Source: an uncultured Bacteroides sp. (GTDB lineage Bacteria; Bacteroidota; Bacteroidia; Bacteroidales; Bacteroidaceae). From it: a stretch of DNA of 39,310 bases. The notes under the pieces are model-generated. The model worked only from the letters and a program-made list of their open reading frames with translations, was not told the DNA's origin and searched no databases. The position numbers were made by a program, and so were the translations under genes. This document shows positions 3,711 through 12,403 of the stretch, one piece after another (positions within the stretch are counted from its first letter, which is position 1; every line of letters starts with the position of its first letter). The DNA lies in contig CAMWGU010000019.1 of NCBI GenBank assembly GCA_947173895.1, positions 1 to 39,310 on the forward strand, in the 5' to 3' direction.

Positions 3711-4342
3711 AACAAATAAGAAGAACGATAACCAAGGCTGAGATAGCAGAAATGCCCAAAGTGCTTTTTTCGGGGCGTATTTTTGTAATATACACTGAGA
3801 GCGAGGCTGAAAAGGCGGTGGCCTATCTGAAAAGTCAGCATATAGTGGGGGTGGATACGGAGACGCGTCCTTCTTTCAAGCGTGGCACTTCTCATAAAGT
3901 GGCTTTGCTGCAAGTTTCCACGCAGGACACTTGTTTCTTGTTTCGCTTAAACCGGATTGGAATGCCCGATTCGCTGCAAGAATTCCTGATGGGCGACACC
4001 CTAAAGGTAGGTCTGTCGCTGAAGGATGACTTCAACTCGTTGAGAAAGCGTGAGAACCTGCATCCTGACAGAGGGAATTGGATTGAACTGCAAGATTATG
4101 TGGCGCGGTTCGGCATTGAGGACCGAAGCCTGCAAAAGATATTTGCCAATTTGTTCGGGCAGAAGATTTCGAAAAGCCAACGTTTGTCCAATTGGGAAGC
4201 GGATGCACTGAGTGACGGACAAAAACTATATGCGGCTACAGACGCATGGGCTTGTGTGAAAATTTACAATTGCCTGGTGGAATTGGAACGTACGGGCGAT
4301 TATGAAATAACTAAGGAAGAACCAATAGAAACAACAGAATAG
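3707..4342 (+). CDS. 3'-5' exonuclease, RNase D/WRN-type DnaQ fold
   Basis: 211-aa DEDDy exonuclease. Exo I is VGVDTETRP (Asp and Glu near residues 50-52), Exo II is LSLKDDFNSL near 105, and Exo III is YAATDAWA near 178-185 with the Tyr and Asp of the DEDDy subclass, so all metal ligands are present. There is no HRDC domain, unlike full-length RNase D, so it resembles the single-domain WRN-exonuclease-like proteins of Bacteroidetes. Substrate (structured RNA 3' ends or DNA) cannot be read from the sequence. It overlaps the upstream DUF5063-like gene by 4 bases and sits 2 bases before the methyltransferase, so a shared role in RNA maturation is a reasonable inference. Confidence 0.9.
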   Translation: MKQIRRTITKAEIAEMPKVLFSGRIFVIYTESEAEKAVAYLKSQHIVGVDTETRPSFKRGTSHKVALLQVSTQDTCFLFRLNRIGMPDSLQEFLMGDTLKVGLSLKDDFNSLRKRENLHPDRGNWIELQDYVARFGIEDRSLQKIFANLFGQKISKSQRLSNWEADALSDGQKLYAATDAWACVKIYNCLVELERTGDYEITKEEPIETTE

Positions 4343-5642: not shown

Positions 5643-5757
5643 TAGTGTGAGGGCAAATAACTGAGTAGTTACGGAAAAAAAAAGACTTAAAAGTTTAAAT
5701 AAGGTTAATTGAAGGCAGAAGGTTAGGGTAATATTATGTTTTATAACATAAAAGCCT

Positions 5758-5838
5758 TATCTTTGCACTGTGTTTTTCATGGTATTAGATTTAAGGTTAA
5801 TGAAGATTGGGTGTCTGGGATAGATACCCTTCTTTTTT
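5758..5838 (+). ncRNA. Small-RNA-like unit, copy A (promoter + shared box + terminator)
   Basis: A -7 box TATCTTTG (5758-5765) is followed five bases later by a box (5771-5800) containing CATGGTATTAGATTTAAGG, then GAAGATTGG, then a 7-bp hairpin with one G-U pair (GGGTGTC 5809-5815, GATACCC 5823-5829) and a T-run (5830-5838). Predicted transcript is about 65-70 nt. No ORF follows on this strand; mnmA lies on the opposite strand and ends at 5914, so the unit is convergent with it and stops before its coding region. The box is shared with copies at 7220 and 7481. The RNA is inferred from structure; no known RNA family is asserted. Confidence 0.6.
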
Positions 5839-5913
5839 TATATCTCCTTTGGTTCCGATAAAAGGCGGCTCAGCAGCAAATCAATGGAGATAGACATATA
5901 GAATTTATTTCTT

Positions 5914-6978
5914 CTATAGGCCGTTGATTTCACCGCTTCCCACACAGATTTTCGCATTTTTATCGTATAGCACTCCGAATTGTCCCGGAGCTATTCCTTG
6001 TATTGGTTCTTGGCTGTGTATCCGGAATAATCCGTTTTCCCGCATTAGCGTTCCTTTTGCAAATGGTTCGGTATGACGAATCTTGAAAGCGATGTCCACT
6101 GAAGATTCTTCTTTCCATAAATCATCTGTTATGAAGTGAAAATCCCGTAAGGCGAAATCAGTTCCATATTGTTTCTCAGTATCATAGCCGCGTGAAACGT
6201 ATATGATATTTTCGTCTATGTCCTTGCGGATGACAAACCACGGTCCTCCGCTTAATCCCATACCTTTGCGTTGCCCAATGGTATGAAACCAGTATCCTTT
6301 ATGGGTGCCAATTCGTTTTCCTGTCTCCAGCTCGATGATGGCTCCCTCTTTCTCTCCTAGGAAACGGCGGAGAAAATCGTTATAATTGATTTTTCCTAAA
6401 AAGCAGATACCTTGGCTGTCTTTGCGCTGGGCACTGGGCAAATTGGCGGTACGGGCAATATCTCTGACTTCGTTTTTCATAAGGCCGCCTAAAGGAAACA
6501 TCAGTTTTGAAACTTGCAGGTAATCTATTTGGGCTAGAAAATCGGTTTGATCTTTGACCGTATCTTGCGCGGTGCCCAGCCATATTTTCCCTTCCTTTTC
6601 TAGAATTCTAGCATAATGTCCGGTGGCTGTTTTGTCGTATAGATATCCCACTTCTTGTTCAAAGCATCCGAATTTTATCAGTTTGTTGCACATTACATCC
6701 GGATTGGGAGTGAGGCCATTTTTGACCTTGTCGATGGTGTATGCCACCACATTGTCCCAATAAGGGCGGTGCAAATCGATGATGTTCAGCTTCAATCCAT
6801 ATTTGCGGGCAGTAGCGGTACATAGTTCAATATCCTCTTCTGCCGTACAGGTAAGGTTTTCATCGCCTTCCATTCCAATCTTTATATAGAAAAGGTCGGG
6901 TTTATATCCTTGCTCACAAAGAAGGTGTACGACGACTGCGCTGTCTACACCTCCTGAAATTAATGTAGCTATGTTCAT
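5914..6978 (-). CDS. mnmA: tRNA-specific 2-thiouridylase MnmA
   Basis: 354-aa enzyme that thiolates U34 of Lys/Glu/Gln tRNAs. The PP-loop SGGVDSA (residues 8-14) binds ATP; the catalytic cysteines are present at C97 ([13 protein letters not shown]) and C192 (DSQGICFLG). The GLSGGPW and GIAPGQ motifs follow and the length is normal. An upstream in-frame ATG at 7023 would add 15 residues ([14 protein letters not shown]), which look non-coding, so 6978 is preferred. The minus-strand -7 box TATCTTTG (7082-7075) gives a leader of roughly 90 bases to this start. Bacteroidales often carry more than one mnmA paralogue; which one this is cannot be told here. Confidence 0.93.
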
Positions 6979-7074
6979 TTCCTTTATATTGTAATAGGTA
7001 TTCTGAGTATAACAGTTTGACATTGTTTTCTTGTCTTTTAATCAAAACATGGTTGTCAAATTGCTTTTGGTCGA

Positions 7075-7105
7075 CAAAGATAAGACTATTTCTTTAATAA
7101 ACAAT
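7075..7105 (-). promoter_or_regulatory. mnmA promoter
   Basis: On the minus strand TATCTTTG (7082-7075) is preceded, after exactly 19 bases, by ATTG (7105-7102), one mismatch from the -33 TTTG. This is a good Bacteroidetes promoter. Confidence 0.6.
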
Positions 7106-7219
7106 AGGCCGGCAATTTGTCGTTTTCTCTATTGTCGCATGATGAAAAAGATTGGTAGATTGAACATTTATTAAGAACTTCGGCTAAACCATTGCCGCTC
7201 TTTCCGTGTTATATAAATG

Positions 7220-7346
7220 TGTTTTTCATAGTATTAGATTAAAGGTTGAAGATTGCAATCGGCTTGTGAAAAGTAGTTGCGTCTGAAGTAGAAGCGTCTA
7301 CTATAAAAATATAGAAAGGTTGTTCCTCATCCGGAACAACCTTTTT
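7220..7346 (+). ncRNA. Small-RNA-like unit, copy B (long form, promoter decayed)
   Basis: The box at 7220-7247 (CATAGTATTAGATTAAAGG) matches copy C at all but one base over this stretch. It is followed by a copy-specific body of about 70 bases and a strong terminator: an 11-bp perfect stem (AAGGTTGTTCC 7316-7326 with GGAACAACCTT 7333-7343), a 6-base loop and T residues. Predicted length is about 127 nt. Unlike A and C, the position expected for the -7 box carries no TTTG (only TATATAAA close to the box), so transcription may be weak or lost, or come from further upstream. Confidence 0.45.
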
Positions 7347-7443
7347 GTTGGATTCAATCAAAAGTCTGATTCTGTGTGATTTGTTAATGAATAGCTTGTT
7401 TTTATTAAACAATGCTATAAATGATGTTTATTGGATTCATAAA

Positions 7444-7544
7444 TTTGCAGATAACAGAAAAGTCCGTATATTTGCATGTGTGTTTTTCATAGTATTAGAT
7501 TTAAGGTTAACAAAAGGTTGGAGTACGGCGGTACTCCTTTTTTT
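7444..7544 (+). ncRNA. Small-RNA-like unit, copy C
   Basis: This is the best-formed copy. A full promoter is present: TTTG (7444-7447), exactly 19 bases, then TATATTTG (7467-7474). Six bases on, the box starts (7481-7510, containing CATAGTATTAGATTTAAGG), followed by AAAAGGTTG and a 7-bp hairpin with a 4-base loop (GGAGTAC 7520-7526, GTACTCC 7531-7537) and seven T. Predicted RNA is about 64 nt. It ends 11 bases before the 3' end of the convergent acyl-CoA ligase gene. No downstream plus-strand gene exists, so it is not an ordinary 5' leader. Confidence 0.65.
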
Positions 7545-7555
7545 ATGCTTTGTAA

Positions 7556-9208
7556 TCAGATGATTTCAATTCCTTGCTTTTTGCATAATTCTAACCCTAT
7601 ATCCTTTAATTTGAATTTCTGTATCTTTCCACTGCCTGTCATCGGAAATTCATCGACAAAGAAGATGTATTTGGGTATTTTGTAGCGGGCTATTTTACCA
7701 TCGCAGAAATCACGGACATCAAATTCGTTCATCTCCACTCCTTCGTGTAGAATGATGAATGCACCTACAGCCTCTCCGTATCTTTTAGACGGAATTCCGG
7801 CTACTTGTACGTCTTTTATGCCTTTCATCTGATAAAGGAATTCTTCTATTTCCCGTGGATAGATATTCTCTCCGCCGCGAATGATCATGTCTTTTATGCG
7901 TCCGGTGATACGGTAATTACCGTCTTCGTCTTTCACACCTAGGTCTCCCGAATGGAGGAAACCGTTTGCATCAATCACTTCGGCTGTAGCTTCGGGATTT
8001 TTATAATATCCCTTCATGGTGTTATAGCCTTTGTTGCACATTTCGCCTTGTATGCCTACCGGACATTCCTCACCGGTTTCCGGGTCGAGGACTTTTACTT
8101 CCGTAAATTCAAAGTCGCGTCCCACGGTGTTGCAACGTACATCAAACGGATCGTCAAGGCGGGTTGCGGTCATGCCGGGAGAAGCTTCCGTCAGTCCGTA
8201 CACACTGGTGACTTTCATATACATTTTTTCTTCCACGCGTTTCATCAGTTCTACCGGACAGAGGGAGCCGGCCATGATGCCCGTGCGCAAAGAGGACATG
8301 TCGAACATATCGAACATGGGATGGTTCAGTTCGGCAATGAACATGGTTGGTACACCATACAGGGCAGTGCATCGTTCTTTATGGATGGAGGCAAGTACTA
8401 CCAAAGGGTCGAACCGTTCTACCATGACTTGTGTGCATCCATGTGTGAGACAGTTCATGGTGGCCAGTACTACACCGAAACAATGAAACAGGGGGACACA
8501 CACGCACAGTTTGTCGTCAGATGTGAATTTCATGTGCTCGCCTGTGAGAAAGCCGTTGTTGCTGATGTTATAGTGGGTAAGCATCACTCCCTTGGGAAAT
8601 CCTGTCGTACCGGAGGTGTATTGCATGTTCACCGTGTCGTGGCAATTTACTTGGGCTTTGGCTTCCAGCAGTTTGTCGTTGTCCACATTGCATCCTAGCA
8701 GTAGAATCTCGGACGTGTTATACATGCCCCGGTATTTTTCCGGACCGATGTAGATCACATTCTTCATGCAGGGAAAGCGTTTGCTTTTCAGGTATCCGCG
8801 TTGGCTGGTTTTCAGTTCGGGCAGCATGGTGTAGACCATATTGACGTAGTCATTGCTGCCACGATCTCCGTTCACGATACATAGTGTATGCATGTCCGAA
8901 TTCTGACAAAGATACTCCAGTTCGGCTTGTTTGTAGTTGGTATTTACGGTGACGGCTACTGCGCCAATTTTGGCGCAGGCATATAAAAAAGTCAGCCAGT
9001 CGGGCACATTGCCTGCCCAGATACCTACATGGGTGCCTCGCTTTACGCCGATGGCGAGTAATCCTTTTGCCATATTGTCTACGCGTGCATTGAACTGGCT
9101 CCAAGTGAAGCGCAGGTTGCGGTCGGAATATACAATGTATTCTTTGTCGGGGGTGGTGAGGGCCCAGTGTTCGAGCCAGTCACCAAGGGTTCGGGTACTT
9201 AATTCCAT
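7556..9208 (-). CDS. AMP-binding acyl-CoA ligase
   Basis: 550-aa member of the acyl-CoA synthetase/AMP-binding family, which activates a carboxylic acid through an acyl-AMP and then thioesterifies CoA. The P-loop [11 protein letters not shown] is near residues 197-207, [10 protein letters not shown] follows in the middle, HSGDLG and [16 protein letters not shown] mark the hinge, and the C-terminal catalytic-type Lys is in [11 protein letters not shown] near 523-533. Overall it resembles medium/long-chain fatty-acid CoA ligases, but the substrate is not readable. The start ATG is 6 bases after the stop of the XRE-cupin gene, so they form an operon, and the regulator probably senses something linked to this enzyme's substrate or product. 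Confidence 0.93.
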
Positions 9209-12025: not shown

Positions 12026-12403
12026 AGAAAGCAGCCGGTCTGTAAGCCGGGTTCTGTCCATCGCCTTATGGCGAAGTGTCTGTCATTTATCTACGCCTGT
12101 TGTCACCAACAGGCTCTAGCGGTCCACCCACCGACGTGGGGCGAGCAACCCTCATAATGCCGGTTTACATGACCTTACAACTCCTAAGACGCACAGCCCG
12201 ACATGTCACCATGTGGCTGGTGGGCTCTTACTCCACCTTCTCACCCTTACCTCGTTTCTCGAGAAGAGAAGCGGGGCGGTTGTTTTCTTCTACGTTACTT
12301 CACCCTCGCGGACGACTTTCTGTTAGGAAGTAGGATGCTCTGTGTTGCCCGGACTTTCCTCTTCCGCCTTATGGCGTCAGCGACAGACCGACCGACTGCT
12401 TTC
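12026..12403 (-). ncRNA. rnpB: RNase P RNA (bacterial type A)
   Basis: On the minus strand the P4/CR-I hallmark GAGGAAAGTCCGGGC lies at 12361-12347 and the 3' hallmark ACAGAACCCGGCTTACAG at 12057-12040. The ends pair as P1 (GAAAGCAGTCGGTC near 12403-12390 with GACCGGCTGCTTTC at 12040-12027, one G-U). Length of about 378 nt is typical for type A. It is the ribozyme that matures tRNA 5' ends. The -7 box TATATTTG at 12417-12410 puts transcription start near 12403, matching the P1 end. Several long reading frames across it on the plus strand (such as 12076-12333) are shadows of this RNA. Confidence 0.97.

Follow-up and report, generated by a model that had tools for sequence, protein, structure and literature searches.

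The small RNA GibS of Bacteroides thetaiotaomicron has been described experimentally, as the available text of PMC7366714 reports. The same organism carries 14 paralogous FopS small RNAs in which the GibS seed R1 is present (PMC11697453, in its available parts). There, FopS RNAs are described as bound by RbpB, as induced by bile salts, and as repressors of susC translation that pair near the start codon.

The stretch of DNA examined here (the window, 39,310 nucleotides) comes from the genome of a Phocaeicola. The box GTGTTTTTCATRGTATTAGATTWAAGGTT occurs three times in the window, always on the + strand and with 0 mismatches, at starts 5770, 7219, and 7480. No further copy within three mismatches is present in the window, and the box appears in 0 of 100 dinucleotide shuffles of it. 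These results bear out an earlier sequence-only reading, which had proposed three plus-strand sites with a common box, although its starts (5771, 7220, and 7481) lie one base late. That reading had also called for a comparison with Rfam, in which all three units now match named families over the cut-off. Units 5770 and 7480 score 76.9 and 81.3 bits with FopS (RF04319, cut-off 56), whereas unit 7219 scores 119.3 bits with GibS (RF04182, cut-off 115). Below the cut-off, each model matches the other kind of unit with an E value of about 0.001 because the seed is shared. The proposal of one three-copy family is therefore correct for the box but not for unit 7219, which belongs to a different Rfam family and, at 132 nt, yields the longer RNA. 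We estimate a probability of roughly 0.9 for the reading in which units 5770 and 7480 are FopS genes and unit 7219 is a GibS gene, with RNAs that pair at start codons as set out below. Two published RNA families account for the finding, which is ordinary in kind.

Table 1. Features of the three box-bearing units and their surroundings (window coordinates).
Feature	Coordinates	Strand	Basis or remark
Palindrome TATGTTTTATAACATA, candidate operator, -35 to -20 of unit 5770	5735..5750	+	only exact ATGTTN4AACAT in the window
-7 promoter box TATCTTTG, unit 5770	5758..5765	+	motif match
FopS small RNA, seed subtype CATGG	5770..5842	+	RF04319
Terminator hairpin, unit 5770	5809..5829	+	hairpin prediction
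mnmA, context	5914..7023	-	gene annotation
GibS upstream stretch, probably the published PM2 type	7184..7218	+	likeness to other GibS promoters by eye
GibS small RNA, type A	7219..7350	+	RF04182
Terminator hairpin, GibS unit	7315..7344	+ (listed on -)	fold and terminator prediction; followed by TTTTTG on the + strand
TTTG at -36 to -33 of unit 7480	7444..7447	+	sequence; scored as -33 TTTG (L071)
-7 promoter box TATATTTG, unit 7480	7467..7474	+	motif match
FopS small RNA, seed subtype CATAG	7480..7547	+	RF04319
Terminator hairpin, unit 7480	7520..7537	+	hairpin prediction
AMP-binding enzyme gene, context	7556..9208	-	gene annotation

Both FopS units have an unpaired 5' seed followed by a single terminator hairpin, with a canonical -7 box directly 5' of the seed. 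The exact -7 boxes noted earlier for units 5770 and 7480 are present, separated from the box by 4 and 5 bases; unit 7219 lacks such a box, as had been stated. The motif TAnnTTTG alone is frequent, with 47 occurrences in the window versus 35.8 expected. A terminator-like hairpin lies 3' of every box, and the stems match those listed in the sequence-only reading. These hairpins are not strictly private to their units, as had been thought: 14 of 105 collected FopS terminators also have the stem arm GGAGTAC. The fold of the GibS unit is stronger than that of all 200 shuffles. Folds of the short units 5770 and 7480 are moderately strong (equaled by 14 and 18 of 200 shuffles), and their seed parts fold no better than shuffles, of which 72 and 138 of 200 are as good.

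No protein gene follows the units on the + strand, in agreement with what had been observed before. Both mnmA and the AMP-binding enzyme gene lie on the - strand and are convergent with the units. A + strand gene for a SAM-dependent methyltransferase with a PUA-like domain is also a neighbor. The MnmA proteins of the window and of P. massiliensis share 88% identity. Elsewhere in the window, a bacterial class A RNase P RNA is matched at 12027-12399 on the - strand (Rfam, 231.8 bits).

The idea of modular RNAs that share one 5' handle and differ in their terminators matches the description of FopS and GibS in the available text of Ruttiger et al. 2025 (PMC11697453). A rival possibility is that the box has no RNA function and represents a dispersed DNA repeat or a mobile-element end, as its multiple copies, some of them on phage contigs, could suggest. 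We compared 106 distinct FopS copies taken from covariance-model matches, a source that partly selects for the hairpin but not for the promoter. TAnnTTTG is present in 104 of the 106, its distance to the box is exactly 4 bases in 100, and a terminator-like hairpin is present in 105. Box, -7 box, and terminator thus keep a fixed spacing across these copies, whereas the sequence-only reading had expected a dispersed repeat to lack it. Moreover, the copies differ everywhere except in box, promoter, and hairpin, and northern blots of members from B. thetaiotaomicron have been published (available text of PMC11697453). A DNA repeat is therefore a scarcely credible explanation, and we favor RNA genes of the FopS and GibS families.

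The three units show three upstream layouts. Unit 5770 combines the -7 box with a palindrome, unit 7480 combines it with a TTTG near -33, and unit 7219 has neither but resembles the upstream regions of GibS genes. The TTTG is found in 47 of the 106 FopS copies. The palindrome, as TGTTN4AACA with up to one mismatch at about -34 to -21, occurs in 30 of 106 promoters (unit 5770 and 29 of the 105 others) and is exact in 22; shuffles give a mean of 1.6 and a maximum of 5 in 200 runs. By the family labels of the genome surveys, the 30 copies span 11 families, and two that are counted among them (L427 and L437) look like weak chance matches. The palindrome is carried by 27 of 55 copies of the CATGG subtype versus 3 of 51 of the CATAG subtype (Fisher 4e-7, a value that is too small because the copies are related and were picked from good matches). 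In 400 kb of the own genome, exact ATGTTN4AACAT occurs twice, and mononucleotide shuffles average 0.45. The second site (G000:C1, L459 17369) lies in a divergent intergenic region between thioredoxin-like and SerB-like genes, as named from their translations. Two exact sites per 400 kb are too few to name a palindrome regulon.

Neither the palindrome nor the three-promoter layout was met in the available parts of PMC11697453 and PMC7366714 or in a literature search. The FopS authors describe the regulator as unknown (PMC11697453, available text), and the palindrome is a candidate for its DNA site. From the arrangement of these promoters, we infer that three layouts on one seed could let different signals reach overlapping targets.

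Upstream of unit 7219, the likeness to other GibS promoters seen by eye consists of GTTATATAAAT beside the start and a degenerate TGAACA (the -30 part) further up. This promoter is probably of the published PM2 type, which has -10 and -30 boxes in the text available. The own genome contains a second GibS copy, of type B, at C8:53530. GibS exceeds the Rfam cut-off in only 5 of 61 Phocaeicola genomes. By eye, 29 of 30 fetched loci are GibS-like, with box, CUUGNGA motif, second hairpin, and terminator; the exception (L042) is a FopS. Among 27 aligned sequences, each of the seven pairs in the second hairpin varies at both positions, and pairing is kept in 93% of cells versus at most 46% in slid controls. 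However, 5 of 500 shuffles also give seven such pairs, and further pair types number 9 versus a shuffled mean of 11.9. The loop of this hairpin reads R-G-N-G in 27 of 27 rows.

Matches to GibS above 100 bits were obtained in nine genomes, whose fetched stretches hold type B in nine and type A in eight. Four of the eight type A genomes (G000, G060, G008, and G027) carry GibS and FopS in tandem, 261-262 bases from start to start. A conserved linkage to mnmA is ruled out, since the 1.5 kb 5' of GibS in G060 and G008 holds no mnmA match and the box, allowing two mismatches, occurs at 2 of 80 named mnmA loci (at one of them, L109, directly beside mnmA).

Nine boxes are present in the own genome, namely seven FopS over the cut-off plus unit 7219 and C8:53530, which are better GibS matches. 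At E values of 0.001 or better, FopS is matched in 61 of 61 Phocaeicola genomes, in 360 of 399 Bacteroidaceae genomes from 29 of 30 genera (302 over the cut-off), and in 88 of 393 genomes of the order (76 over the cut-off), in surveys whose filters lose weak matches and whose counts include some GibS units. Outside Bacteroidaceae lie 82 of the 88 matching Bacteroidales genomes. The available text of PMC11697453 speaks of Bacteroidaceae, and the words Parabacteroides and Prevotella are absent from its main text. FopS beyond Bacteroidaceae was likewise not met in the accessible portions of that paper and PMC7366714 or in a literature search. Genus g20 of the Bacteroidaceae gave no FopS match, and RRM_1 is absent in 10 of 10 of its tested genomes. 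The box (up to three mismatches) is found in 7 of 16 g20 genomes, five of which have GTAATAG and a GibS-like body.

For the constant 5' handle, a pairing seed, a protein site, and a processing site had been offered. The first two have published support, because R1/R1' is a pairing seed and RbpB binds the same RNAs (PMC11697453, available text). It might be argued that binding by RbpB or another RRM protein is the main reason for conservation of the box, with pairing being secondary. Such a view draws on CLIP and gel-shift data for RbpB on FopS and GibS of B. thetaiotaomicron (same source), and all 67 RRM-positive Bacteroidaceae genomes are FopS-positive (lists compared by eye; Fisher 0.001). 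However, proteins of the RbpB type (RRM_1) are found in only 67 of 399 Bacteroidaceae genomes versus 360 of 399 for FopS, so that 293 of the 360 FopS-positive genomes have no RRM_1 match. Among 33 Phocaeicola genomes, the 24 that lack RRM show no difference in FopS number from the nine that have it (mean 7.6 versus 8.7, p 0.28). The complementarity of the box to susC starts also speaks against a protein site as its main role, which we consider improbable, and a pairing seed is preferred. This distribution argues against RbpB as a necessary partner; the difference in range was not met in the available parts of PMC11697453 and PMC7366714 or in a literature search. The own genome encodes one RRM_1 protein. 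GibS matches above 100 bits occur in 7 of 9 RRM-positive and 0 of 24 other Phocaeicola genomes (Fisher 8e-6), an association that descent alone could explain since these genomes may be close relatives.

As a pairing seed, the box would act as follows. The small RNA made from each unit would have the box at its 5' end. Within the box, CAU would pair with AUG, and UUUAAGGUU would pair with the AU-rich leader. Ribosomes would thereby be kept from entering, chiefly on transcripts for SusC-type transporters, and polysaccharide utilization operons would be turned down as a result. The complement of the seed, TTAACCTTAAATCTAATACTATGAAAAACAC, is an idealized start region. By analogy with B. thetaiotaomicron, we infer that pairing, repression, and RbpB binding may hold in the present Phocaeicola too.

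Predicted seed duplexes in the own genome average -12.95 kcal/mol for 23 susC starts versus -9.40 for 45 other starts (p 6e-4), where the susC start is the most upstream in-frame ATG and the control starts include mechanical ORFs. The best of 200 shuffled seeds reaches -10.86 on the susC starts. With stricter controls, 22 susC starts versus 49 others give p 0.0016, and AT-rich controls only give p 0.009. In a relative (G060), predicted pairing is stronger for 29 susC starts than for 16 control starts (p 5e-5, and the same with AT-rich controls), and also relative to shuffled seeds. Part of the excess could come from base composition. No excess is seen for 14 starts of non-susC genes in the same stretches (p 0.34). 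Among the 23 susC starts of the own genome, five pair weakly, at -4.7 to -8 kcal/mol. The 19-base complement, allowing three mismatches, has 20 sites in the genome. The nine sites that have 0-1 mismatches correspond to the RNA genes, so that near-perfect trans targets are absent from the genome; the other 11 compare with 5 sites when the pattern is reversed. Taken in isolation, the 5' part of unit 5770 self-pairs weakly (-2.8 kcal/mol), which counts against the mechanism.

Viral contigs contain 110 matches to the 18-base core, of which 17 have the full box, 16 the -7 box, and 11 both; the remainder may be chance matches. One FopS sequence in a Caudovirales phage is already mentioned in the available text of PMC11697453. 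An unannotated FopS, preceded by a -7 box, is present in the temperate Bacteroides phage BX-TP2 (PQ571285.1 44817-44851; L339 974-1008), about 1 kb from the end of the phage record. Two phage units adjoin tRNA genes on the - strand. In L159, the box (3847) is directly 3' of a tRNA-Arg gene (3850-3922), whereas in L190 the box (1169) and a hairpin precede a tRNA-Leu gene (1002-1077). Both units have no -7 box and score below the FopS cut-off, and the 5' ends of their RNAs could come from tRNA processing. In L160, a tRNA-like stretch uncalled by ARAGORN lies 5' of the box, and the RNA passes the FopS cut-off. Boxes adjoining tRNA genes in phages were not met in the available portions of PMC11697453 and PMC7366714 or in a literature search.

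A broader reading would join these observations, and we give it slightly less than an even chance. FopS would provide start-codon silencing across the order independently of RbpB, and one seed in the window would be driven by three promoter types. An undescribed transcription factor would bind ATGTT-N4-AACAT over the -33 region on one lineage, mostly of the CATGG subtype. Phages would have taken up the seed, in some cases beside a tRNA gene, possibly silencing SusC-type receptors of the host. The main point is already explained, and the promoter palindrome and the differing FopS and RRM ranges are the parts worth following.

Compared with FopS of B. thetaiotaomicron (PMC11697453, available text), the two FopS units have the same seed, -7 box, unpaired 5' part, and terminator hairpin, and they are 73 and 68 nt long versus about 65-70 nt. 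Unit 5770 differs in having a palindrome at the usual place of the -33 element, for which that text holds no mention. The GibS unit shares with its B. thetaiotaomicron counterpart (PMC7366714, available text) the R1 seed, two inner hairpins, a terminator, and the lack of a TAnnTTTG box, but is 132 nt long rather than about 145 nt. It lies between mnmA and the AMP-binding gene, whereas GibS of B. thetaiotaomicron lies between PABA synthesis and glycogen genes (same source). The latter position is a property of the B. thetaiotaomicron locus and not of the GibS RNA.
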